Shown piece after piece: positions 27,704 to 64,000 of a stretch of 64,000 nucleotides of DNA. Source of the DNA: Proteinivorax tanatarense (GTDB lineage Bacteria; Bacillota; Proteinivoracia; Proteinivoracales; Proteinivoracaceae); contig NZ_CP158367.1 of NCBI RefSeq assembly GCF_040267685.1, forward strand, positions 2,480,001 to 2,544,000, in the 5' to 3' direction. Within the stretch, counting starts at the first letter, position 1; each line of letters starts with the position of its first letter. The notes beneath the pieces are model-generated. The model saw only the letters and a program-made list of their open reading frames with translations. It had not been told where the DNA came from and did not search any database. A program made the position numbers and the translations under genes.

Positions 27704-28981
27704 ATGAAAAACAACACAAAAATCTTAGGGATGTTGATAAAAAAAAATAGGCTGGAACAAAACATGAGCCAGGAAGGGCTTTGTCAAGGCATATGCGCTG
27801 TGTCTTATTTAAGTAAAATTGAAAAAGGAACTATAATTTGCAGTGAAGAGATTTTAAGGCAACTTTTAGATGTCTTAGGTATTAGTTTGCCTACTGATAT
27901 AGATCTCACAATATATGAAAACAAAATTAACGATTTTTTTCACTACTATTTTTTTGATAATAAAGATAAGGTTAAGGATATTATGAATGAACTAAAAGAG
28001 AAGTCTAGTGTTCTAGCACATTCGAATTTAGCTATAGACATGATGCTAGTGGAAGCATATTGGAGCTATCTTTTTGGAAGCAATGATAAAGAAAATATCA
28101 ATAATATAATAAGACAACTTTTGCCATTTAAACACTATATGAATGAAATCCAAACATACCGACTTTATATAATCATGGGACAGTTAGAAGGTTTTATTAA
28201 TCACGATTACCATTCGTCTTTAAACTATTTTACAAAAGCAAAAAATAACACCCCCGAGGGTTTCGCTCTTGCCGGGGTTGTAGCAGCCCATTATGGACTG
28301 GGGAATTATTTAGATAGTATAGTTTTAGGGGAAGAAGCTTATATTAAACTAACTCAAGAAGGAAATATAGAATTCGCAATCTATGTATGCAATATTATAG
28401 CTGCCTCTTATGCTAATTATAGGGATGTAGAAAAAATGGCGAAATACTTTAAAAGAGCAATCTCGCTAATAAAGTCAGATGTTAATTCAGCTAGGTTAGG
28501 ACATGTCTATTATAACCTTGGATCTGGATATTTAGTTACTGCCAACTATTCTGAAGCTATTAAATACTTCAACTTATCCTATGAAATTCTAAATCAACTC
28601 ATAAATTCTGATACCCGCTTTTACATCTATCTACTACAAAAACTTTTTCTTGCAAACTTCGCCATAGGCAAAAAGCAACAAGCTGGGTATTACTTAAAAT
28701 TATCTGAACAGTGCTATAAAGATTTTCCCGAACAGATAAACATAGCCTTAAAGGCTTCTCTTAAATGGCTACAGAAAATGTACACTATAGAAAATTACTT
28801 ATACAACAAGGAATATCTCAATGCCATAAAAGACCTCTATGAAGTTTCAATAAATGACACACATCGTGGATACACACTACTGTATGCAGATTACTTAGTA
28901 GATACATACAAGAAACAGCGTAAGTACAAAGAGGCGTTAAAAGTAACAGAATATCTGCATGTAAAGAGTCAATTTTCTTAA
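27704..28981 (+). CDS. XRE-type HTH regulator with TPR domain (Rgg/PlcR/RopB-like)
   Basis: 425 residues. An N-terminal helix-turn-helix (LIKKNRLEQNMSQEGLCQGI, then AVSYLSKIEKG) is followed by a long all-helical domain of tetratricopeptide-like repeats (for example NIIAASYANYRDVEKMAKYF and GHVYYNLGSGYLVTANYSEA). In Gram-positive bacteria such proteins are often receptors of short peptide signals. Start ATG 27704 has GAGGTG; the earlier ATG at 27674 does not. It lies between a dead peptide-type ABC exporter, an MFS exporter and a radical-SAM maturase with its precursor, so it is the likely regulator of that locus. Confidence 0.8.
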   Translation: MKNNTKILGMLIKKNRLEQNMSQEGLCQGICAVSYLSKIEKGTIICSEEILRQLLDVLGISLPTDIDLTIYENKINDFFHYYFFDNKDKVKDIMNELKEKSSVLAHSNLAIDMMLVEAYWSYLFGSNDKENINNIIRQLLPFKHYMNEIQTYRLYIIMGQLEGFINHDYHSSLNYFTKAKNNTPEGFALAGVVAAHYGLGNYLDSIVLGEEAYIKLTQEGNIEFAIYVCNIIAASYANYRDVEKMAKYFKRAISLIKSDVNSARLGHVYYNLGSGYLVTANYSEAIKYFNLSYEILNQLINSDTRFYIYLLQKLFLANFAIGKKQQAGYYLKLSEQCYKDFPEQINIALKASLKWLQKMYTIENYLYNKEYLNAIKDLYEVSINDTHRGYTLLYADYLVDTYKKQRKYKEALKVTEYLHVKSQFS

Positions 28982-29119
28982 ATACTATCCTTCTAAAGTC
29001 ACTAAAGATATCAACTCAGTGGTTATTTTCCCAATATCACCATATTCTTTTAACTGTGTTAAAATGCTAAACTATGATAAAGATGATATTTGACCACTAT
29101 AACTTTAGGAGGTACTTCC

Positions 29120-30394
29120 GTGAATCTAAAACTACTTAAAAACAAAAACCTAAGTTTACTATTATTAGGTAGGTTTGTGTCTATGTTTGGCAGCGGTGTA
29201 ATGCAATTTGCTTTCTCATTATATGTATTAAGGTTAACAGGATCCGCATCTCAATTTGCTTCAGTACTTGTTGTTGCTATGATACCCATGCTTCTTTTAG
29301 GTCCTATAAGTGGGGTTTTTGTTGATTGGTTTGACAGAAAAAAACTGATTGTATATCTTGATCTAATTTCAGGTCTTATAGTTGGCGTAATGTTTTTAAT
29401 TTCCGTAACTTCAACAATCACTATGTTTCATATTTACATCACAGTAATTTGTCTCTCCATAATTACTACCCTTTTTAACCCGGCTATCAACACAGCAATC
29501 CCGTCCCTTGTGGATAAAGATGATTTGCTAGAAGCAAATTCCTTAAATAGAGTCATAATGACCATCACCATGATGATAAGTCCCATGGTGGGGGGAGCTT
29601 TATTTGGTATATTTGGCATCTCCATCATTCTTTTATTGAATTTCGTTAGTTTTATTTTATCTGCTATTTCAGAAGCTTTCATTGATTTGAAAACCCCTAA
29701 TAAAAAGCACAATGATTTCTCTTTTAATTCCTTTTATAATGACCTCAAATCTGGTATAAACTTTATTTTAAACCATAATATAATGAAAAAAATAATTACT
29801 CTATCCTTTGTAGCCAATGCTTTCTTTAGCCCTGCCCTAAGTATAGGTCTAATTTATATAGCCAGCATGGTTATAGAAGTTAGCGACTTACAACTGGGTA
29901 TTCTACAATCCTCACTAATGGTTGGCTCACTACTAGGTCTTAGTATAACTGGAACGGTAGCAAAAAAAATCAAGTTGACCAAAGTCATTTATATGGCGTT
30001 AATTATAATGGGTACATTAGTCTGCTTGATAGGTTTTAGTTCTTTACCAGCCTACTTAAACCTCTTCAATAATAATCTAATACCTTACCTCACAATAGTA
30101 GTTTTAGCTTTAATTATAGGATCTGCTGCAGTTATTACAAATGTAGGAATGGCCACCTTAATGCAGAAGGAAGTCCCCTCTGATATGTTAGGTCGAGTAA
30201 GCTCAGTCAAAGAAACAGCATCTTTGTGTGCAACACCCTTTGGACAAATTATATTTGCCGGAATGTATGACACGATAGGAACTTTTATTCCTATAATGAT
30301 AAGCGGAACAGTCATGGTTATATCAGCGGTTTTGTTTAATTATTCTGTACACAAAACTCCAAAAGAAGCTGGAGCTTCCGGGTCAGGCTTTTGA
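29120..30394 (+). CDS. MFS exporter (MFS_3, macrolide/siderophore-efflux type)
   Basis: About 424 residues with twelve predicted membrane segments. The family motif between segments 2 and 3 is present as GPISGVFVDWFDRKK. GTG 29120 is chosen because AGGAGG stands seven bases upstream; the ATG at 29090 is upstream of this site. Members such as MefA and EntS export macrolides or siderophores. Beside a RiPP-type maturase it may export the product or give self-immunity. The last codons (GSGF-stop) come from a copy of the terminal repeat seen at 56754 and 58717, so the original C-terminus appears replaced. Confidence 0.85.
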   Translation: MNLKLLKNKNLSLLLLGRFVSMFGSGVMQFAFSLYVLRLTGSASQFASVLVVAMIPMLLLGPISGVFVDWFDRKKLIVYLDLISGLIVGVMFLISVTSTITMFHIYITVICLSIITTLFNPAINTAIPSLVDKDDLLEANSLNRVIMTITMMISPMVGGALFGIFGISIILLLNFVSFILSAISEAFIDLKTPNKKHNDFSFNSFYNDLKSGINFILNHNIMKKIITLSFVANAFFSPALSIGLIYIASMVIEVSDLQLGILQSSLMVGSLLGLSITGTVAKKIKLTKVIYMALIIMGTLVCLIGFSSLPAYLNLFNNNLIPYLTIVVLALIIGSAAVITNVGMATLMQKEVPSDMLGRVSSVKETASLCATPFGQIIFAGMYDTIGTFIPIMISGTVMVISAVLFNYSVHKTPKEAGASGSGF

Positions 30395-30404
30395 TATTTC
30401 AATA
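30380..30404. repeat. Solo copy of the GGGGTCAGGC terminal repeat
   Basis: GGGTCAGGCTTTTGATATTT followed by CAATA, identical over 25 bp to the terminal repeats of the miniature elements at 56754-56880 and 58717-59046. No partner end is found nearby. It supplies the final codons and stop of the MFS gene. Confidence 0.8.
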
Positions 30405-30416
30405 TTATTAATTAAC

Positions 30417-30455
30417 AAAAAAACCTATCCTAAAAAGTATGGATAGGTTTTTTTA
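30417..30455. terminator. Terminator of the MFS gene
   Basis: AAAAAACCTATCC/GGATAGGTTTTTTT stem, T-run on the right; usable in both directions. Confidence 0.85.
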
Positions 30456-30580
30456 CCTTTTCTAAAAACACACAAAGGCTATGTTGATGTAAGTAATTCA
30501 CTTATGGCTTCTTAGAAACACGTCTTTAAGGTTTTAACTTAGATTAGTTAATTTACAAAACTTTTATTACACACAACACA

Positions 30581-31930
30581 TCAAACGGTACTATTTTCTA
30601 TCTCCTCATTTTTTATAGCCTCTTCCCTTTCTTTATAAAGTACGGGTAACTCTTTGTGCAAAAGAGTTTTGATGGAATAGCACACGGGCTTAAAAAAATC
30701 CCCATCGTTATCTATTAATTTCAAAGGACAGCCGCCTCCACAAAGAAGAGAATATGTACAATCCCTACATTCAGGAATCGCTTCTATATTACGGTTACGT
30801 ATGGAATTTTCTTTATATTCTATCAAAGGGTGGTACTTTCCTATGGAAAAGTGCTCCTTGCCTACGCATCCCAAGCATGGATATATAGTGCCATAGGGGT
30901 CAAATACCATGCCATCTACATGGGCGTAACAATAAGAGTATAAAGGGTTTATGTCTCTACCATATACTAAGTGATCAAGTATAGAATTTTTTTTAGTTAT
31001 AAAATCATTTATTCTTTCCCTGTCCTCAAAAGAATGTTTATTATCTGAGGAATATATTTCACTCACTATATCAAGCCGCTCATTACTGGAGGCTCCAATA
31101 AGTGTGGATAACTCAAAGGATAAATTGTTCTTGTATCCCGAAAACATGTCAAGCAACTTTTCTCTTAAATCTATTCCTTCCTCATAGTTATTTTTGTCGA
31201 GGTTCATTCTTATTCGAACGTTTATACCATTCTTTAAACATTTTTCTACACCTTCCAAAATTTTTCTAAAGGTAGGTTTTCCGTTAGCTAAAAACCTCCT
31301 GCTATTGTGGAATTCTTCATTGCCATCTAAAGTAATTAAAACTTGAGAAATATTTATTGATAAAAGTAAATCAAGAAATTCCGTTAAGTAATATCCATTA
31401 GTAAAAATTTGATATGTTTTATCGGGGGCCTTATTGAAAAGATGTTCTAAAACTGGTCTGGTTTTGGGAAGCAAAGGTTCTCCCCCAAAAATACATATTG
31501 CCTCAAGACCATCACCGGCAAGGTTTAAGGCGGCATCAATTTGTTCTGGAGTTATAACCTCTTTTTTTAGATAGGCATCACCTTCAAAACAATAAGGGCA
31601 CCTGAAGTTACAGTCATAAGTCATAACAAATACCGCAGATCTTTGATTTTTTTGTCTTTCAAGATGATTGTCTCGAACCACCTCTAAAATTTCACTTTTT
31701 TTAGCTAGTTCCTCTTCATAGTTATTTACAACATACCCCCTAGCTTGAAGATTACTCAATAACTCAGCCTCCAAATCATTCTCTGTTACAATTTCTTCAC
31801 AGTCCTGCCACTTGGATAAAGTTTCATAAATAGGAGCATCTATTTCGTCCATAGTTCCTGTTAAAGAGTTTATTAAAAGCTTTTTGTTATTATGTATATC
31901 TACAAATATCATATGTTTTATTAATTTCAT
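30581..31930 (-). CDS. Radical SAM/SPASM peptide maturase
   Basis: 449 residues. An N-terminal ~90-residue region (NSLTGTMDEIDAPIYETLSK) resembles the peptide-recognition part of RiPP maturases. The SAM-binding [4Fe-4S] motif CNFRCPYC has Cys107, Cys111 and Cys114, and IFGGEPLL is the GGE motif. The C-terminal SPASM domain for two auxiliary clusters shows CYAHVDG, YPCLGCVGKE, ECRDCTYSLLCGGGC and a final VCY. Such enzymes install thioether or C-C bonds in small precursor peptides. The 39-residue Cys-tailed peptide encoded 227 bp upstream on the same strand is the obvious substrate. Cytoplasmic, oxygen-sensitive. Confidence 0.92.
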   Translation of the reverse strand: MKLIKHMIFVDIHNNKKLLINSLTGTMDEIDAPIYETLSKWQDCEEIVTENDLEAELLSNLQARGYVVNNYEEELAKKSEILEVVRDNHLERQKNQRSAVFVMTYDCNFRCPYCFEGDAYLKKEVITPEQIDAALNLAGDGLEAICIFGGEPLLPKTRPVLEHLFNKAPDKTYQIFTNGYYLTEFLDLLLSINISQVLITLDGNEEFHNSRRFLANGKPTFRKILEGVEKCLKNGINVRIRMNLDKNNYEEGIDLREKLLDMFSGYKNNLSFELSTLIGASSNERLDIVSEIYSSDNKHSFEDRERINDFITKKNSILDHLVYGRDINPLYSYCYAHVDGMVFDPYGTIYPCLGCVGKEHFSIGKYHPLIEYKENSIRNRNIEAIPECRDCTYSLLCGGGCPLKLIDNDGDFFKPVCYSIKTLLHKELPVLYKEREEAIKNEEIENSTV

Positions 31931-32062
31931 TACTTCCCCTCCTCTAAGCTGATTATTCTGTACTGAAATCTGCCTCTGCCCATAACATCAAACTCACATA
32001 ATTTCGCGATAAATACAATATCCACATGTAAAAAAAACAGAAATCTTAACGGGATATAACAA

Positions 32063-32106
32063 CCCTTCTATCACAGTACACTTTGAACAGTTGTGATAGA
32101 AGGGTC
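32063..32106 (-). promoter_or_regulatory. Hairpin between precursor and maturase genes
   Basis: ACCCTTCTATCACA pairs with TGTGATAGAAGGGT around a 16-nt loop. There is no T-run after it, so it is more likely a partial attenuator or an RNA-stabilising stem that keeps precursor mRNA more abundant than maturase mRNA. Confidence 0.6.
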
Positions 32107-32157
32107 ATGTAGCTTACTTAATTTAGTAAATAGGTAATCTAAACTACTTTGCTAATC

Positions 32158-32277
32158 TTAGCATGCACAGCAAAACTCGCTCCCAATTCCTATCATCGGT
32201 CCCATTTGTGCACTATTTTGACTCCTCTCAGTTTTTTGTAGATTCCAACCAGTTTTGACAATTGATTTCATTTTCAT
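32158..32277 (-). CDS. Putative RiPP precursor peptide, Cys-tailed (39 residues)
   Basis: ATG 32277 is preceded by an excellent ribosome site (TTAGGAGGTGAAAAATC). The peptide begins MKMKSIVKTGWNLQKTERSQ, continues NSAQMGPMIGIGSE and ends FCCAC. A basic/amphipathic leader, a Gly/Met-rich stretch and a terminal cluster of three cysteines fit a precursor whose cysteines are modified or cross-linked. It lies directly upstream of the SPASM radical SAM gene on the same strand, with a hairpin between them. I do not recognise the exact family; the MKxIVK start recalls the Clo7bot-type peptides, but that is a guess from memory. Confidence 0.75.
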   Translation of the reverse strand: MKMKSIVKTGWNLQKTERSQNSAQMGPMIGIGSEFCCAC

Positions 32278-35168: not shown

Positions 35169-35211
35169 CTTTAATTTTATCTGAAGGGGTATTTTTTAAT
35201 AGATAACTGGA
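35169..35211. repeat. Fragment of an IS21-type end
   Basis: TTAATTTTATCTGAAGGGGT followed by ATTTTTTAATAGATAACTGG closely matches 22768-22808, just inside the right end of the IS21 element (two or three differences). No transposase remnant accompanies it, so it is either a scar or a shared ancestral sequence. Confidence 0.7.
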
Positions 35212-35278
35212 GTTTTACTTTACCTAAACACTAAACTAAATTGGGTTTGAAAAATGATATCTACTCTATCGTATATAA

Positions 35279-47274: not shown

Positions 47275-47616
47275 CTAGTAACCGGCAATCTCCTTAATTC
47301 TAAATTCTTTTCCTGAAATCAAAGTAAAATCTTCACCCTCACAATTGGGACAAATTTTCCTGTTATCAATTATGTTGTAAACTTCTTTGCATAGATTGCA
47401 TTTACCGTTAGCTGGTAAAATAATAATCTCAAGTTTTGTCTGTTCGTAAGGTGTTTCAGTTACAGCTGCAGGATAGCAATCTTCAATATACCTTGGTATT
47501 GCTTGAGATAATTGTCCAATTTCCAAAACTATCTTTTCCACTTTTTCAACATTATTTTCTTTTGCAAAATTATCTACGATTTTTATAACTTCGTATACAA
47601 TTCCCAATTCATGCAT
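47275..47616 (-). CDS. HypA/HybF-like nickel metallochaperone
   Basis: 113 residues beginning MHELGIVYEV, the nickel-binding Met-His-Glu N-terminus of HypA. The zinc site is CNLC...CPNC near residues 75-95. HypA delivers nickel for hydrogenase (or urease) maturation. I start at ATG 47616 because MHE must be N-terminal for nickel binding; GAGGGATT is the site. No hydrogenase or other hyp gene lies in this window; instead it follows a large Fe-S/FAD oxidoreductase. Confidence 0.88.
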   Translation of the reverse strand: MHELGIVYEVIKIVDNFAKENNVEKVEKIVLEIGQLSQAIPRYIEDCYPAAVTETPYEQTKLEIIILPANGKCNLCKEVYNIIDNRKICPNCEGEDFTLISGKEFRIKEIAGY

Positions 47617-47676
47617 AACATAATCCCTCATTTTCCTATGATGGTTTGTTCTTGGATGATAAGAAAATCTAATTAA

Positions 47677-50451
47677 CTATCTGGTTTTCGTAAAAGGGTT
47701 TATTTTATTTAAAGCAATTTTAGCTTTTCTAGAGACTGCTTTTTTGATTACTTTTTTAGGTAAATCATCAATTTCGTAGCCAATAACATCGTGAACCCTT
47801 TCTAAGTCGATTGCATCAAACTTACATCTTAAGGTACAGGCACCACAACCAACACATAAGTATTCGTCTACTTTGGTTGCGCCACAGCCTAAACATCTAG
47901 CTGTCTCCTTTTCTATTTCCTCTTCTGTGAAAACTCCTCTCAAATCTTTAAAAGTAGTTTTAGAAACCTCTCCATCTATATGCTTGATTCTTTGACGCTC
48001 AGTTCCGTCGTAATCTATTAAATCCGCTAGATTTTCCTTATCAAGCGCTATATATGAGTGGGTATCCCTTCCAAACACTAAAGATTGGCCATTTTGAACA
48101 AATCTGTGGATAGAAACAGCAGCTTCCTTTCCAGCAGCTATGGCATCAATTGCAAGCCTTGGTCCACTAACAACGTCTCCACCTGAGAAAATATCGTTCT
48201 TTGAAGACTGTAATGTTATAGGATCAACTTTTATAGTGTTTCTATTAGTTAAAGTAACATCTTCACCTTTTAATAAATTGCCATAATCAAAGTTTTGCCC
48301 TACTGACATTAAAACATAGTCACAAGGAACTACCTTCTTATCAGATTCGTCAAACTTAGGGTTAAAGTTTCCATTCTGATCAAATGTTGATATACAGCGT
48401 TTAAACTCAACTGCCTTTACCTTGCCATTTTTCGTTATGATTTTAGAGGGTCCCCATGAGTTGTTAATTCCTACCTGCTCTTCTAAAGCTTCCTCCACTT
48501 CCTCTTTATGAGCTGGCATGTTGTCTCTATCTTCAAGACAGTATATATCAGTTTCAAGAACATTTTTTAGCCTAACTGAACTCCTAGCCACATCAATAGC
48601 AACATTACCACCACCAATTACTACTACCTTACCTTGGACTTTGGTTTCTTCACCTAAGTTAAGTGTTTTAAGGAACTTAACTCCACTAAGTACTTCCTTT
48701 GATTCTTCTCCCTCTAAGCCCAGTTTCCTACCTGACTGAGCGCCAATAGCTACATAAAAAGCATTAAAACCTTGATTTCTAAGTTCCTCAATAGTAAGAT
48801 CTTTTCCTACTTCTACTCCCGTTTTAAATTTCACGCCCATTTTTCTAATCACGTCAATCTCTGCTTCTATAACGTCTTTTTCTAACCTGTATGAAGGAAT
48901 ACCTAAACTTAACATACCACCTAGCTTTTCCTCTTTTTCAAAAACTGTGATGTCGTATCCATCAATAGCAAGGTCATAAGCACATGTAAGCCCTGATGGT
49001 CCAGAACCGATAATTGCAATCTTCTTGTCCCCATAGTTATGTCTTTTTGTAGGGATGTATCTAGTCTCCGTATCTAAATCCTTCTGAGCAATAAACTTTT
49101 TGATATCATCAACAGCTACTGCTTCATCTAAATCACCACGGGTACAGTCTTCCTCACAAAGTCTTGGACATATACGTCCACATACTGCTGGAAGTGGATT
49201 ATGTTTCTTTATAAGCTCAAGAGCATCAGTGTACTTTCCTTGTGATGCTAACTTAATATAGCCTTGAACTGGAATATGAGCAGGACAGCTTGTAATACAA
49301 GGGGATGTGCCAGAATCTAAAGTGTTTTTCCGATTTTCTCTGTAGTCGGTGTTCCATTTGTCTTCTAACCATTCAGTGTCTCTTGGAGTAACTTTTGTAA
49401 TGGTTTCGTCTATTGGATTTTCTGAGCATAGCTTTTGACCAAGCCTTAATGCGTTAGTTGGACATACATCAATACACTCCCCGCAAGCCACGCAGTTTGA
49501 TTCGTCCACTACAGATTTATAATTAGACCTTACAATATCATTGTTTAAGTACTCATTTGCCAGTCTCATGGCAAAGCATCCACATCCACAACAGTTACAT
49601 ATAGCGTGAGTGTGACCAGGTCCGTCCAAATTAGGAATAGAGTGCATTAATCCATTATCTTCCGCCCTTTTAATAATTTCAAAGGCTTCTTCCCTTGTTA
49701 TTTCTCGACCACGGCCAGTTTTTATGTAATATTCTGCGGCGTGGTCTAGCTGGATACACATTTCTTCTTTTAAGTGTCCACAACCTTCTCCCATAGCCTC
49801 TCTAGATGTTCTACATGAACAGTCTGATACTGTAAAAACGCTAGCTTCATTTAAATACTTAGATAGTTCTTCAAAAGATGCTCTTCTTGTATTGGCATCA
49901 ATAGATCTTTCAATAGGTATTACTCTCATAGGGCCTCCACCAATAGGCATAATTCCTGCCGCCATTGGCCCCCTTTTACTGCCGAAGTAATAAAAAGCTT
50001 CAGCAACTTCAGGGTGTTTTTCAACGATTTCCTTGTTATTGTTAATCGTTTCTAGATGGCCGGGAACAAAAATATCCTGCCAATACATATCTACTCCATC
50101 AACAGTATTAACAAAGGCAACACCAGCCCAAGCAATATGATCTAGTGCAGCTTTGACTTTTTCATAAGGTTCTCCCGCTGCTTTTGCAACATCGTCAGCG
50201 CTAAGCTTTTTCCTAAATTCTAAGTGCATTGCGATTTTAGCCTGATAAGAGTCTAAAAGCGGTTCAAGAGCATAATACTCTGGTCCAAATGGTATAGCTT
50301 CTCTACTTGTTCCAGCTTTGGTTCTTCCTATTTTATTGGCAAGATCAAGAATCTCTTGCCTATACGGGCGGCCATCAACATCTGCCCATGTTAAAGCAAA
50401 ATTAAAGCGCTTAGACTTATTAAAGTTTGTTTTTTCATTTTTTTTAGCCAT
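47677..50451 (-). CDS. Fe-S/FAD NAD(P)H oxidoreductase, GltD-like with extra N-terminal cluster domain
   Basis: 924 residues. Residues ~1-150 look like a winged-helix region. A Cys-rich part (CSCRTSREAMGEGCGH; ICNCCGCGC) and a ferredoxin site CVACGECIDVCPTNAL follow near 325. The centre is a GltD-type module: CPAHIPVQGYI and CGRICPRLCEEDC bind clusters, IAIIGSGPSGLTCAYDLA binds FAD, VVVIGGGNVAIDVA binds NAD(P). The C-terminus has CLGCGA and CVGCGACTLRCKFDAIDL. Likely a cytoplasmic electron-transfer or bifurcating-type enzyme; partner unknown. First gene before the hypA-like gene. Confidence 0.85.
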   Translation of the reverse strand: MAKKNEKTNFNKSKRFNFALTWADVDGRPYRQEILDLANKIGRTKAGTSREAIPFGPEYYALEPLLDSYQAKIAMHLEFRKKLSADDVAKAAGEPYEKVKAALDHIAWAGVAFVNTVDGVDMYWQDIFVPGHLETINNNKEIVEKHPEVAEAFYYFGSKRGPMAAGIMPIGGGPMRVIPIERSIDANTRRASFEELSKYLNEASVFTVSDCSCRTSREAMGEGCGHLKEEMCIQLDHAAEYYIKTGRGREITREEAFEIIKRAEDNGLMHSIPNLDGPGHTHAICNCCGCGCFAMRLANEYLNNDIVRSNYKSVVDESNCVACGECIDVCPTNALRLGQKLCSENPIDETITKVTPRDTEWLEDKWNTDYRENRKNTLDSGTSPCITSCPAHIPVQGYIKLASQGKYTDALELIKKHNPLPAVCGRICPRLCEEDCTRGDLDEAVAVDDIKKFIAQKDLDTETRYIPTKRHNYGDKKIAIIGSGPSGLTCAYDLAIDGYDITVFEKEEKLGGMLSLGIPSYRLEKDVIEAEIDVIRKMGVKFKTGVEVGKDLTIEELRNQGFNAFYVAIGAQSGRKLGLEGEESKEVLSGVKFLKTLNLGEETKVQGKVVVIGGGNVAIDVARSSVRLKNVLETDIYCLEDRDNMPAHKEEVEEALEEQVGINNSWGPSKIITKNGKVKAVEFKRCISTFDQNGNFNPKFDESDKKVVPCDYVLMSVGQNFDYGNLLKGEDVTLTNRNTIKVDPITLQSSKNDIFSGGDVVSGPRLAIDAIAAGKEAAVSIHRFVQNGQSLVFGRDTHSYIALDKENLADLIDYDGTERQRIKHIDGEVSKTTFKDLRGVFTEEEIEKETARCLGCGATKVDEYLCVGCGACTLRCKFDAIDLERVHDVIGYEIDDLPKKVIKKAVSRKAKIALNKINPFTKTR

Positions 50452-50853
50452 TTTTTAATCTCCTCCCTTTTTTAACCCAGTTTTACCCATTGTCCTATGC
50501 CCCTTTTCCCCTACTCCTAGCTTTAAGTTGATTATAGCAATACCGAAAACTCCCCGGCAAGAAAGGCTTATCTAATAAATCAAGGGATATTTTACTTTAC
50601 ATTTGTGTTTACACTTAGATTCATTTCGCCAACAGCTTAATTTTTTGATAATAATTTGATTATTACATAGATATTGTAAACAAAAACCTAAAGTAAAATA
50701 TTTTTCTTTTGGAGAAAACATAATAGAAAAACCTATAGCTTAGGTAAAAATCAAAATATTGTAAACCCATCGTATGTATGTTAAAATTTTAACATACATT
50801 AAAGCTTTGCGATTATACATTTTTAGTACGTTTAGGTGGGGGCCGGGGGCGCT
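50452..50853. other. Divergent promoter region
   Basis: About 400 bp between the leftward oxidoreductase and the rightward transposase-like gene. It contains the palindrome at 50774-50799 and an unusual G-run (GTGGGGGCCGGGGGCG, 50836-50851) directly before the ATG. Confidence 0.45.
50774..50799. promoter_or_regulatory. Perfect 26-bp palindrome, probable operator
   Basis: ATGTATGTTAAAA followed by its exact complement, 55 bp before ATG 50854. The only DNA-binding protein nearby is the HTH protein encoded immediately downstream, so autoregulation is plausible. Confidence 0.65.
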
Positions 50854-51831
50854 ATGGATAAACAGTTAAAGTTTGAAATAATTATCGAAGGGCAAAAATA
50901 TGGTGTCACTGCAACCTGTAAAAAGCATAACATCTCAAGGACACTTTATTACCGTTGGTTAAAACGATATAAAACCCATGGCATTGAAGGCTTAGGTAAG
51001 ATAGAAAAGAACTTCACTCCGGTTAATAAAACTAAACCAGAAATAGTTTCTACTATTTTAAATCTAATAAAAAAACACCCAAAGTTTGGGCCAAGGGAAA
51101 TCAAATATTTTTTAGAAGAGATAGGCTATGATATAAGCGAATCTGCTGTGTATAATGTTATGAATAGAAATAATCTAACAAGAAGGGCTAAAAGACTCAA
51201 ATTTGCAAATAAGTCAGAGAAAAAGGCAAACAGGAATTACCCCGACTTTGAAAGGATAAAAAGTGGTGAATGTTGGTTGTGTTGGACAACATTCTGTGGA
51301 GAGTTTGAAGCTTTAGGCTCAATATATGCTTACACTATATTTGATTACAAAAGTAAAATTGCTTGTACTAGGCTATACAATCAGCTGTCTATGAAAAATT
51401 TTGAAGACATTCTAACAGGCTTGGCAATCCCTGTTGCTCAGAGCTTGGGGGCCGAGTGTAAACATTTGTGCTTTTTTGATAATGACATCATAGAAAAACA
51501 AAAAGGTTCTCTCTTGTCTTACACCACTGTTCAACATTTCGGATATGATATAAATGTTCATATGTTAAAAGAAAGCGATGATTTAACTGAAGCTAACGAA
51601 TTAAGAAAAGAATATACTCATCAGTGTTTATCGTTTCTAATGCCTCTTATTTATAAAGGAGTATCGTTTAATAAACTTAAAATTGATCTGCAAAGTTATA
51701 TCAGAGATTACAACATTAAAAACAAATTATCGTATAACGGTGAGTTTTACTCACCTGTTGAGTACCATGCTAAGTCAACAAATGCTGAAGTGATTTTGCC
51801 CCTATGGGCTTATATAGAAAGACAATATTAA
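50854..51831 (+). CDS. Transposase-derived HTH protein with degenerate integrase core
   Basis: 325 residues. N-terminal helix-turn-helix regions (YGVTATCKKHNISRTLYYRW; KKHPKFGPREIKYFLEEIGY) are as in IS481/IS3 transposases. In the integrase-like core the expected WxxDxT is ECWLCWTTFCGEFEA without Asp, and no clear second Asp or final Glu stands at the right place. So it should bind DNA but not transpose. No terminal repeats flank it. It shares an operon with an FAD oxidoreductase (12-bp gap) behind a 26-bp palindrome, suggesting a domesticated regulator. ATG 50854 or GTG 50836 are possible starts. Confidence 0.7.
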   Translation: MDKQLKFEIIIEGQKYGVTATCKKHNISRTLYYRWLKRYKTHGIEGLGKIEKNFTPVNKTKPEIVSTILNLIKKHPKFGPREIKYFLEEIGYDISESAVYNVMNRNNLTRRAKRLKFANKSEKKANRNYPDFERIKSGECWLCWTTFCGEFEALGSIYAYTIFDYKSKIACTRLYNQLSMKNFEDILTGLAIPVAQSLGAECKHLCFFDNDIIEKQKGSLLSYTTVQHFGYDINVHMLKESDDLTEANELRKEYTHQCLSFLMPLIYKGVSFNKLKIDLQSYIRDYNIKNKLSYNGEFYSPVEYHAKSTNAEVILPLWAYIERQY

Positions 51832-51843
51832 GAGGTGATAAAG

Positions 51844-53034
51844 ATGCGCTATGCCATAATAGGAGCAGGGTTCAGTGGCATGTTAGCAGCTTATCTTTTA
51901 GAAAAAAAAGGTGCAGATGTCACTGTATATGAAAAACAAGAATATATAGGTGGCCACTGTAGAACCATTGTTAATAAATATATGTACATTGAGCTTGCTA
52001 CCGTATTTTGCTTTTCTCAACATATCAAAGAGCTTTTAATAGAACTAGATGTGGGATATACTGAGCGGTTTACTTACAGAAATTTTTTAGATGAGAATTT
52101 TTCCAAAGTTGAACATATGCCCAGAGATAGGGTAGAAGTACTGATGGAGGAGCTAATAAAATTAAATGATATATTGAAAAGTTATCGGCCTTACTTAAAT
52201 GATGTTAATTATGGGTATATCCCTGAAGATCTTACGGTATCCTTGCATGAATTTCTTACAAAGAACAAGTTAAATAATATTAGTGAAGTAATAGCTCCCC
52301 ATCTCTCGTCATTTGGTTTTGGAAGTATATACGAGATTCAAGCATACTATGCTTTTCATATCTTTGATATGGATACTATTTACTCATTTATTCAGAGTAA
52401 TAAGCTTTTATTTGTAGACAAGGGAATGTCTGAGGTAATACATAAGCTGAGTCAGAATATATCAGATATTCGCTATTCAATCGAGGTAATAAATATCGAA
52501 AGATTAGATGACAAAGTCAAGGTTGAATCGGAATATGGCTCTGATTTATATGACAAGGTTCTTATTACAACTAAGTTGCCTGATGGTGTGATAAAAGATG
52601 ATTTATACAACCAAGCAATGAATAAGATTGATACAAATCCATATATCACCTGTGCTTATGAGGTAGATAGTAGAAATGTTGTCACAACATATTATAAGGC
52701 CAATTTAGGGAAAAAAAGAAAAATCCAGTTTTTCCATACCTTTAACCATAATAACAAAAATATATTGGTTGCTTATGCCTACGGTTATGTCAATAAAGAA
52801 CTGGTCAACAGCATTACCCATGATATTGAAAATTCAGGTATCCAGGTGAAGCACTTAATTACAGCGAAACAATGGCATATATTTCCACACTTAAAAGAGC
52901 AGAACTTAACTCAGAGCTTTTATAAGGACATCCTAGACAGACAAAAAACGAGCAATATATGCCTTATCGGTTCATTAGTTTCAAAGCCGTCAATTTCAAA
53001 TTTATATGCTTCTATTAAGCAGTTTATAGGTTGA
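51844..53034 (+). CDS. FAD-dependent amine oxidase/protoporphyrinogen oxidase-like protein
   Basis: 396 residues. The N-terminal dinucleotide site is MRYAIIGAGFSGMLAAYLLE, followed by the GG motif region YIGGHCRTI. The C-terminal FAD contact (NICLIGSLVSKPSISNLYAS) replaces the usual AGD motif. It belongs to the NAD(P)-binding Rossmann/flavin amine oxidase superfamily; substrate unknown. GAGGTGATAAAG is the ribosome site for ATG 51844. It is translated together with the transposase-derived HTH protein. Confidence 0.75.
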   Translation: MRYAIIGAGFSGMLAAYLLEKKGADVTVYEKQEYIGGHCRTIVNKYMYIELATVFCFSQHIKELLIELDVGYTERFTYRNFLDENFSKVEHMPRDRVEVLMEELIKLNDILKSYRPYLNDVNYGYIPEDLTVSLHEFLTKNKLNNISEVIAPHLSSFGFGSIYEIQAYYAFHIFDMDTIYSFIQSNKLLFVDKGMSEVIHKLSQNISDIRYSIEVINIERLDDKVKVESEYGSDLYDKVLITTKLPDGVIKDDLYNQAMNKIDTNPYITCAYEVDSRNVVTTYYKANLGKKRKIQFFHTFNHNNKNILVAYAYGYVNKELVNSITHDIENSGIQVKHLITAKQWHIFPHLKEQNLTQSFYKDILDRQKTSNICLIGSLVSKPSISNLYASIKQFIG

Positions 53035-59046: not shown

Positions 59047-59080
59047 TTCCTTCTATGAGGTAACAAAATATTCCTGCCTA

Positions 59081-62000
59081 AGATCACCCCCGCTTGCGCG
59101 GGAAAGACAGATCAAATTAGAGCATCAGAAGAATTCCAAGAGGATCACCCCCGCTTGCGCGGGAAAGACATACACCGAATCCTAAAGTATGACTTAACCA
59201 TGGGATCACCCCCGCTTGCGCGGGAAAGACTTTAGGGGCGTTTCTGTTCCCGCGTTGTTATAGGGATCACCCCCGCTTGCGCGGGAAAGACTTGACTGAT
59301 GTATTGAGCATTGTTTTAGCGTTGGGATCACCCCCGCTTGCGCGGGAAAGACCCATTTCTCCTGTAGAATACCATTTGTAAATCAGGATCACCCCCGCTT
59401 GCGCGGGAATGACTCAAAACAGCTTGCCCTTCTGGCATACTTTCAAGGATCACCCCCGCTTGCGCGGGAAAGACCCCTCTCACCGAGATTGTTGAAATTG
59501 TTACTAGGGATCACCCCCGCTTGCGCGGGAAAGACAGATTGTTTCATCTCTGCGTCTAGGGAGTACAGGGATCACCCCCGCTTGCGCGGGAAAGACCAGA
59601 AAAAGCTTTTGAAATGATGCCATATTTTGGGATCACCCCCGCTTGCGCGGGAAAGACATAGGCGAAACCTTCATTATTAGCTTGTATGTAGGATCACCCC
59701 CGCTTGCGCGGGAAAGACCGAGCATGTAGGAGGGCGGGGAACCCCTGTTTAGGATCACCCCCGCTTGCGCGGGAAAGACTAAATTCCTTTATGATAACAA
59801 ATTGACCCGGCAGGATCACCCCCGCTTGCGCGGGAAAGACCTTGATACAGCTTTTGATAGTTTTGAAAGGGAGGGATCACCCCCGCTTGCGCGGGAAAGA
59901 CCAGCCGCAAAAGCATAACAGGAATGTCACTAGGGGATCACCCCCGCTTGCGCGGGAAAGACTGACCCTAGCTTGGGGAAACAATGCAAATCAAAGGATC
60001 ACCCCCGCTTGCGCGGGAAAGACATCCAATGAACACATCAAGGATTCCTATGATTAGGATCACCCCCGCTTGCGCGGGAAAGACGTCTACAAAGTTTACA
60101 GTTGTTGTAGCTTCACAGGATCACCCCCGCTTGCGCGGGAAAGACCCTTTAAATGAAACCATTCCATTTTCATCAATAGGATCACCCCCGCTTGCGCGGG
60201 AAAGACTTTCTACCAAAAAATCATAGAATAGGCTTGATGGGATCACCCCCGCTTGCGCGGGAAAGACGGCGTCATTGCTAACGTTGATTTTCCGCATGAG
60301 GGATCACCCCCGCTTGCGCGGGAAAGACGTAGGACTGTAATAAGAACCACGTCAAACAAAGGGATCACCCCCGCTTGCGCGGGAAAGACTGTATATAAGT
60401 CTCGCCATTTCCTCTGTGGCTAGGATCACCCCCGCTTGCGCGGGAAAGACACTCCCCGAAGCGGCAAAACAACAGCAGGAGTAGGATCACCCCCGCTTGC
60501 GCGGGAAAGACTCTGTGACTTGGAAATTTTCGGGGATAGTGATGGGATCACCCCCGCTTGCGCGGGAAAGACTGTCATCCCACGAAAACCACTTTTCTCC
60601 GTCTGGGATCACCCCCGCTTGCGCGGGAAAGACTATCATTTCATCTACAATATCTCGAATCTCCCAGGATCACCCCCGCTTGCGCGGGAAAGACTGTTGA
60701 GCTTCTTGCACTTGCTGATTACTGCCAGGATCACCCCCGCTTGCGCGGGAAAGACTGCATCCTGATTCAAATATTGAATTTGTACTTAGGATCACCCCCG
60801 CTTGCGCGGGAAAGACGATGAGGTTGGCAAACTAGCAGAGAGCTTTGTAGGATCACCCCCGCTTGCGCGGGAAAGACAATATTTGACACACAAGAAGAGC
60901 ATGAACGAGCAGGATCACCCCCGCTTGCGCGGGAAAGACAGCACAAAAGAAAATAAGTGCAAGACAAGCTAAGGATCACCCCCGCTTGCGCGGGAAAGAC
61001 AACGATGGCCCATTTAAGGACCAAATGAAACAGGGATCACCCCCGCTTGCGCGGGAAAGACGTACATGACATTTAGCAGCGACTATCTATTTGCGGATCA
61101 CCCCCGCTTGCGCGGGAAAGACCAGGTTTCCCTCCTTTCAGCCTGGGTCATTTTAGGATCACCCCCGCTTGCGCGGGAAAGACTTTTCCAGCCGACTTCT
61201 ATAATGCCTATATCCAGGATCACCCCCGCTTGCGCGGGAAAGACTGCGCCAACTGTCGCAGGATTGAAAAAGTATTAGGATCACCCCCGCTTGCGCGGGA
61301 AAGACCAGAACAGATGGTTACAAATCAAGGGGATGTAGGGATCACCCCCGCTTGCGCGGGAAAGACTAGCGGCATAGGAGTTATACAAAATGCCTGGTAG
61401 GATCACCCCCGCTTGCGCGGGAAAGACAGAAGCAATAGTTAAAAGGATATACTCTTTATAGGATCACCCCCGCTTGCGCGGGAAAGACTGTCATACCTTC
61501 TACGTCTGCCTGTGCTGCTTGGGATCACCCCCGCTTGCGCGGGAAAGACATACAAATTCAAAAGTACCTTTCAGCCAATTAGGGATCACCCCCGCTTGCG
61601 CGGGAAAGACAGAGAAAAGTAATATTCCCAAAGGAGTATTAAAGGATCACCCCCGCTTGCGCGGGAAAGACCGACATTTTAATTAACAAAGGTTTGGAAA
61701 GTTGGGATCACCCCCGCTTGCGCGGGAAAGACAAAATTAAAGGGGTGATAGTATGTTAGAGTTTAGGATCACCCCCGCTTGCGCGGGAAAGACTCTCATT
61801 CATTTTTGCGACAAATTTCGACTTTTAGGATCACCCCCGCTTGCGCGGGAAAGACTCAGTTCCTGGGGCCAATCTAAAATCAAACTCAGGATCACCCCCG
61901 CTTGCGCGGGAAAGACGGTAGCTGCAACGAACAAGGCCATATATCACAGGGATCACCCCCGCTTGCGCGGGAAAGACGCTGCTGGTGCTACCGGTGCTGC

Positions 62001-62221
62001 TATGTTTGCAGGATCACCCCCGCTTGCGCGGGAAAGACTAAGACAAAAAGACAGCGGTTTTCAGCTTGTCAGGATCACCCCCGCTTGCGCGGGAAAGACA
62101 ACGCTTACTTCCTTTATCGAACAAGAGTTTTAGGATCACCCCCGCTTGCGCGGGAAAGACTTAAGCCATGAAGCATGACCAGAAGCACCAGCGGGATCAC
62201 CCCCGCTTGCGCGGGAAAGAC
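59081..62221 (-). CRISPR. Type I-E CRISPR array, about 52 repeats and 51 spacers
   Basis: 28-bp repeats at a 61-bp period; in the reading direction (minus) they start GTCTTTCCCGCGC, continue AAGCGGGGGTG and end ATCC, with the GC-rich palindrome CCCGCGCAAGCGGG. Spacers are mostly 33 bp. Orientation is set by the I-E consensus ending GTGATCC and by the cas1-cas2 genes to the right. The oldest (left) end has variants: the first repeat reads AGATCAC instead of GGATCAC and the sixth GGGAATGAC instead of GGGAAAGAC. All others look identical. I saw no repeated spacer. Confidence 0.97.
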
Positions 62222-62244
62222 ACTTAAAGATCCCTTTAATAATC

Positions 62245-63147
62245 CTATTCTTTATTTATTATTTTTAAAAATTTGTTCACTTTGGTCGATAATTGATAAA
62301 TAAGTTTGGCATCTGCTAAAGCTCTGTGAGGTACTCTATCCCCTATTTTATAAGCTGATAAAACAGTATCTAATTTATAATTTTTAAGATTTATTTTTTC
62401 TCTTTTGACAAATTTATTCAAATCAAAAACCTTATTAGTTAGGATTTGCATGTTTGATTCACTTAATGTCCTATTTAAAAAGCGAAGATCAAAATCTACT
62501 TCAAATCCAACTAAATCGAAGTCCTCTATAAAATCAATAAATTCCTTTAATCCTCGCTCCATTGATATACCTTCTTTTTCTAACAACTTCTGAGTTATGC
62601 CGGTAAGTTTGGTAATTTCTGCTGGTATATTTTTTTCGTATTCGATCAGTCGCTGAAAGTGCGAAATTTTATCACCTTCAGCTTTAACTGCCCCAATTTC
62701 AATGATTTGATTTTCTTTATAATTCAACCCATCCGTCTCTATATCAATTACTACATAATTAAGACTTTCTATTGGACCCTTTGCTTTTGGAGCAAATTTC
62801 TTTGCTTTCCGAAATTTTGCCGCATTACTATATCCCTTCTTATGTTCATTTTCTTCTATAACCTGATTTATTTTAGGTAATGCTACTAGTGGGATGCCAT
62901 CATATTCAACAACTTGTCGCTGAGCATTTAACGTTTCAAAATGATACCCTATTTCATTTTGAATGGCATAGCTCATTGTCGCTTCACCAGTACTAGAACT
63001 TTGAACAACTCGCTCCCAAAGTTGTGCGCGAATTTTCGTATTAAAGTTTCCTACATAAACACCTGTTGCAATCTCTTGCATCCATTTGCTTAAGTCACCC
63101 CGAAGTGAAGGCGGAACCTTTTTCAAAGTGATTACAGTAAGTGGCAT
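62245..63147 (-). CDS. cas2: Cas2e fused to a DnaQ-like DEDDh exonuclease
   Basis: 300 residues. Residues 1-95 are Cas2e (MPLTVITLKKVPPSLRGDLS, KWMQEIATGVYVG). After a basic linker, residues ~128-295 form a DEDDh 3'-5' exonuclease: Exo I VVIDIETDGL, Exo II VGFEVDFDLRFLN, Exo III HRALADAKLIYQL. Such fusions are known in type I-E systems (for example Streptococcus thermophilus), where the exonuclease trims prespacer ends for Cas1 integration. It starts 2 bp after the cas1 stop and ends 23 bp before the first repeat. Confidence 0.95.
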   Translation of the reverse strand: MPLTVITLKKVPPSLRGDLSKWMQEIATGVYVGNFNTKIRAQLWERVVQSSSTGEATMSYAIQNEIGYHFETLNAQRQVVEYDGIPLVALPKINQVIEENEHKKGYSNAAKFRKAKKFAPKAKGPIESLNYVVIDIETDGLNYKENQIIEIGAVKAEGDKISHFQRLIEYEKNIPAEITKLTGITQKLLEKEGISMERGLKEFIDFIEDFDLVGFEVDFDLRFLNRTLSESNMQILTNKVFDLNKFVKREKINLKNYKLDTVLSAYKIGDRVPHRALADAKLIYQLSTKVNKFLKIINKE

Positions 63148-63149
63148 CG

Positions 63150-64000
<851 letters not shown>

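Follow-up and report, generated by a model that had tools for sequence, protein, structure and literature searches.

Among the described RiPP maturases of the radical SAM/SPASM type, the SCIFF enzyme CteB has an Aux I cluster with an open site able to bind a substrate Cys, and a bound Cys has been seen there (PMC6231123, PMC8326336); in SuiB, the first Aux I Cys comes from the linker (PMC6231123). In the NxxC ranthipeptide NxxcA, Cys23 is linked to Asn20 (PMC8326336). Here we compare with these systems a peptide gene and a radical SAM/SPASM gene from the window, the whole 64,000-nucleotide stretch of Proteinivorax tanatarense contig NZ_CP158367.1 that was analyzed (Table 1). With moderate confidence, we read the two genes as a horizontally mobile RiPP module in which thioether-type crosslinking proceeds via a Cys-Cys (CC) doublet.

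Table 1. Features of the peptide–maturase locus and its neighbors (gene positions are those of the window; residue numbers are those of the proteins).
Feature	Position	Strand	Details and sources
Precursor peptide gene	32158..32277	-	39 aa; ORF with AGGAGGTG ribosome site upstream
Precursor leader			contains Trp11
Precursor C-terminal core			...MGPMIGIGSEF-CC-A-C
Stem-loop, precursor–maturase intergenic	32059..32108	-	alignment, RNAalifold
Radical SAM/SPASM maturase gene	30581..31930	-	449 aa; Pfam/NCBIfam, alignment of 26 relatives, AlphaFold2, PDB fold search
Maturase RRE-like N-terminus	residues about 1-90
Maturase CX3CX2C	C107/C111/C114
Maturase SPASM Cys	C334, C352, C388, C391, C397, C401, C417
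MFS transporter gene	29090..30394	+	NCBIfam/Pfam
HTH_3 + TPR regulator gene	27704..28981	+	RRNPP-like architecture; Pfam

Peptide Conservation and Pairing With the Maturase

The sequence-only reading had proposed a RiPP precursor and SPASM maturase, and the coordinates, strand, and sequence that it gave for the 39-codon ORF and for the radical SAM/SPASM gene were correct, as was the good ribosome site claimed for the short gene. The encoded peptide, MKMKSIVKTGWNLQKTERSQNSAQMGPMIGIGSEFCCAC, has zero matches among Pfam and NCBIfam models. A genome scan returned close maturases, 81–85% identical to that of the window, in Tissierella simiarum, T. sp. P1, T. pigra, Alkaliphilus transvaalensis, and a Clostridia MAG. 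More distant maturases came from termite-gut Defluviitaleaceae, Anaerosalibacter, and others, and a second, Tissierella-centered search added four further close loci. A homologous peptide of 35–42 residues lies upstream of the maturase in 13 of the 13 other single-enzyme loci (L006–L011, L014, L015, L035, and L041–L044; hosts Tissierella, Alkaliphilus, the Clostridia MAG, and termite-gut Defluviitaleaceae), and each of these short ORFs has a strong ribosome site. Orthologous maturases without the short frame were looked for, and there were none among these 13 loci. With a peptide beside every single-enzyme maturase, the RiPP reading is strongly supported; the locus combines a CX3CX2C motif and a SPASM domain with a conserved adjacent precursor.

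The conserved unit is the precursor, the stem-loop (at most loci), and the maturase. It consists of two genes and lacks a protease, exporter, or immunity gene of its own; none of these is conserved with the pair across the compared loci. Three termite loci (L014, L015, and L035) share a third gene 3′ of the maturase, RCC1-like and lipoprotein-type, whose product is a possible partner of the peptide.

Known distinct precursors number 13, nine of them close relatives, and all 13 were aligned (L044 was excluded, being identical to L043). Met1, Trp11, Cys36, and Cys37 are invariant, and nothing else is. Phe, Trp, or Tyr directly precedes the doublet in 11 of the 13 peptides. The three terminal cysteines described earlier therefore stand only in part: the CC doublet is invariant, but the last residue (Cys39 in the window) may be C, W, Y, M, or L, being Cys in nearly all close-clade peptides and Tyr, Trp, Met, or Leu elsewhere. 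Position 33 is Ser in the window, and close relatives have N, S, D, or G there, the Gly of L009 having no beta carbon; the termite loci, with V, V, and F, do not conserve it. The check on codon conservation that the sequence-only reading had called for was passed, with dN of 0.19–0.35 vs. dS of about 0.9–1.5 where computable between the window peptide and its relatives. Since dN is far below dS, the reading frame is under purifying selection, and these values, together with the homologous short ORFs upstream of all single-enzyme maturases, place the 39-codon ORF beyond chance.

The Maturase Resembles CteB

The maturase exceeds the Pfam/NCBIfam cutoffs for Radical_SAM (PF04055) and TIGR04085. 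Its ten motif Cys, three in CX3CX2C and seven in the SPASM domain, do not vary across 26 relatives, one of which is the SCIFF maturase of the same genome, and profile alignment gives the enzyme and CteB an identical C...C...CX2CX5CX3C...C pattern; no extra linker Cys is conserved in the alignment of 26. Because this seven-Cys pattern is CteB-like, an open Aux I site is predicted for the window maturase too, and the pattern favors, without proving, Cys-centered thioether chemistry. An AlphaFold2 model (pLDDT 89) predicts a strand-strand-strand-helix-helix arrangement for residues 7–63, which would be RRE-like, and a PDB fold search with this model returned RRE-bearing CteB (5why/5wgg) as the best match, with TigE and SuiB close behind. 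The window maturase very probably acts on the 39-residue peptide.

Other maturase loci were encountered. The same genome has a true SCIFF pair (L003, 856255–857583) and a Clo7bot-like maturase (L002, 2411163–2412428; 337 of 600 bits) accompanied by an HTH regulator and by two Cys-rich precursors that resemble each other. In L019 and L020, the neighbors of a maturase relative (31%) are an arsenite-methyltransferase-like protein and a peptide of 39 aa that has two CC doublets, e.g., MRPVTKANLGQTKICCTSVALKVAQCCSKSSKVVSGCHD, and fits no curated model.

Intergenic Stem-Loop and Neighboring Genes

The precursor and maturase genes of the window are 227 bases apart. In the window, as in its close relatives, a stem-loop lies between the genes, and ten loci share an unchanged 12-bp stem core (alignment, RNAalifold); the window copy folds much better than shuffled sequence (z = −4.8), and the motif recurs in relatives with no further copies elsewhere within the window. 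Its U-tract in the window is weak (TTGTT), and the hairpin was not picked up by a simple terminator scan with a loop limit of 8. A simple scan of the precursor's strand gave no convincing promoter. The stem-loop is a probable partial terminator or processing/stability element that sets the peptide:enzyme ratio; a partial terminator, which would give more peptide than enzyme, is its natural reading. Two other RNA candidates were rejected: the only Rfam match in the region was a sub-threshold Thr_leader 3′ of the maturase, and a structured RNA outside the stem-loops, in the maturase 5′ region, showed little covariation, with 40–50 nt missing from the window. Two repeats also occur in the window, a bidirectional-terminator-like one 3′ of the maturase (30380–30455; many genomic copies) and a 44-nt element at 35169–35212 (at least nine other genomic copies).

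A stem-loop between ORF and maturase, with a stem that varies less than some parts of the ORF do, would also suit a short ORF that is never translated and acts as a conserved leader or attenuator of the maturase gene, the substrate being encoded elsewhere. We consider this very improbable: dN lies well under dS, the ribosome site is conserved, length changes are in frame, and the peptide is kept both in L011, which has a different hairpin in the equivalent position, and in the termite loci, which have no copy of the window-type stem. The unit might, alternatively, be larger than two genes. The TPR-HTH regulator and MFS exporter that the sequence-only reading had placed next to the maturase both exist, but on the opposite strand and convergent with it (the MFS gene has a GTG start codon at 29120 preceded by an AGGAGG site, the TTG at 29090 being the start set mechanically for its ORF). 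Both lie no more than about 4.5 kb from the precursor and could complete an operon for quorum sensing or a bacteriocin, with the TPR protein as sensor of the mature peptide and the MFS protein as its exporter; a TPR regulator is divergent from the precursor gene in L011, a TPR protein lies nearby in L009, and SCIFF-derived ranthipeptides reportedly act in clostridial quorum sensing, going by a title cited in PMC8326336. Besides the opposite strand, the locus comparison makes such an operon improbable and ruled out both genes as conserved parts: no related locus has an MFS homolog (and in the phylum sample such neighbors are rare), the one TPR regulator match beside related maturases, near L011, is only 26%, neighbors of the close loci vary between genomes, and most Tissierella loci are flanked by unrelated genes. 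A conserved HTH-TPR regulator, as expected of an RRNPP-regulated RiPP operon, was thus not seen, nor was any consistent neighbor, and the regulator probably lies outside the conserved module.

Origin and Transfer of the Module

Deeper relatives of the maturase (L012, L013, L016, and L045–L049) occur in larger clusters with a second radical SAM enzyme and an ABC exporter, and most also have an M55 peptidase (D-aminopeptidase-like, PF04951). One of the two enzymes is 34–53% identical to the window maturase, and the precursor leaders likewise have a Trp near the start, whereas the precursors are longer and their core is different. Leader homology between the window peptide and these precursors reached an hhalign probability of 12%, which is suggestive only. 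The clusters are uncurated, and the Cys/Gly cores of their precursors are varied. In the maturase tree, single-enzyme loci are interspersed with two-enzyme ones, L012/L013 being nested beside the clade of L011 and the window; the placement of L014/L015 is unsupported (0.20). Because the deeper relatives are larger clusters, the simplest reading of the two-gene module is a reduced, exporter-less derivative of them.

The window maturase is 80–85% identical to those of Tissierella and Alkaliphilus, vs. 65–67% for RpoB, and no further member of its family was found in other sampled genomes of its own genus, family, order, or class (12 others in the class sample). The excess of maturase over RpoB identity and this absence from sampled relatives together indicate horizontal transfer. 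Carriage by a virus or plasmid was considered and rejected, the matches being one distant viral hit and plasmid hits all <60% identical. A block encoding HypA, a 924-aa oxidoreductase (81% identical), a transposase-like HTH protein, and a flavin amine oxidase is found in both the window (47275–53034) and L043 (10830–17213); its distance from the module is 15 kb in the former, in the latter the two adjoin directly, and the block may have travelled together with the module. Farther along, the window contains a Type I-E-like CRISPR array of about 50 repeats (GGATCACCCCCGCTTGCGCGGGAAAGAC, 61-nt period; 59070–62240), next to cas1 (62245–63147) and a fusion of cas2 with a DnaQ-type 3′-5′ exonuclease (63150–63932).

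Proposed Mechanism and Alternative Chemistries

The most likely product is a leader-dependent thioether peptide, ranthipeptide- or sactipeptide-like, that uses the CC doublet. The leader (MKMKxIIxxxWxLQ) would dock on the RRE-like N-terminal domain of the maturase, which would generate 5′-deoxyadenosyl radicals and crosslink the C-terminal core (about residues 25–39) at one or two places. Invariant Cys36-Cys37 would be the sulfur donors, and the likeliest bond would be a thioether to a residue further upstream, for which position 33, three before the first Cys, is a candidate. Leader removal and export would fall to proteins encoded elsewhere, and the stem-loop would probably hold the peptide in excess over the enzyme.

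The doublet could have another role, e.g., metal binding or a disulfide. A possible, though unlikely, alternative to the thioether is a different change near the aromatic-Cys-Cys tail, namely crosslinking of the aromatic residue by a C-C or C-O bond (streptide- or cyclophane-like), an epimerization, or cyclopropylglycine formation at Ile/Val-Gly, with the Cys serving metal binding, a disulfide, or recognition. The aromatic residue so frequent before the doublet is in keeping with it, as are the ranks of TigE and SuiB just behind CteB, maturase scores well under the cutoffs of all thioether families, and the resemblance of the close-clade Ile/Val-Gly to the TVGG motif of TvgA (PMC9062424). Against it, some members have neither the Ile/Val-Gly stretch nor the aromatic while CC is invariant, and the seven-Cys SPASM aligns with that of CteB, the SuiB-type linker Cys not being conserved here. 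We regard as doubtful a more speculative proposal, suggested by the absence of a dedicated exporter, protease, and immunity gene, in which the peptide is an intracellular agent or a released cofactor or signal, made by an undescribed radical SAM reaction on the aromatic-Cys-Cys tail in a streamlined, horizontally spreading offshoot of the two-enzyme clusters.

Comparison With Described RiPP Families

The peptide–maturase pair is a compact, testable substrate–enzyme system outside all curated maturase families. Only three residues beyond the start Met are invariant (the leader Trp and the doublet), so few mutants suffice to address leader binding and bond chemistry, and the natural tails CCAC, CCEY, CCEW, CCLDDWAW, CCAGDQYL, and CCNGDQHM are a ready specificity series. 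Kinship with the two-enzyme, exporter-bearing clusters would make the module an example of how a RiPP pathway is pared down and passed from one lineage to another.

By score, the closest curated maturase models are Clo7bot (TIGR04334; 120 bits vs. a 600-bit cutoff), the CefB Cys-every-fifth family (NF038107; 127 vs. 600), and TIGR04463 (118 vs. 525), all of which the window maturase fails to reach, as it does those of the PapB ranthipeptides (NF047865; 101 vs. 340) and SCIFF (TIGR03974; 77 vs. 425). As the sequence-only reading had anticipated in naming no class, neither peptide nor maturase reaches a SCIFF, Clo7bot, PapB, CefB, or TIGR04463 model. The three closest models imply by name a Cys-rich or Cys-every-fifth pattern, whereas the window peptide has a C-terminal CC, with Cys at 36, 37, and 39 only. 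TigE and TvgB, of the cyclopropylglycine type, are likewise SPASM RiPP enzymes, and TigE is among the top fold matches, but the window peptide has an invariant CC and no repeated TVGG-type core. We found no paper describing the two-gene CC-peptide family in the open-access literature.

SCIFF (TIGR03973 precursor; CteA/CteB) shares the arrangement of a short Cys peptide adjoining a radical SAM-SPASM enzyme with an RRE (predicted in the window maturase), the identical seven-Cys SPASM pattern, and the best solved-structure match, although the window peptide does not have six Cys in forty-five residues and does not match TIGR03973. PapB-type (freyrasin) and NxxC streptococcal ranthipeptides have a Cys thioether to a residue a few positions away, and an NxxC-like spacing, with N, S, or D at i−3 of the first Cys, is seen in 9 of 10 close and L011 peptides; the i−3 residue is not conserved in the termite peptides. 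The CC-peptide family is uncurated and probably new within the known radical SAM/SPASM RiPPs, and a peptide–maturase pair that distantly related anaerobes share outside the named families is probably a new natural-product family.
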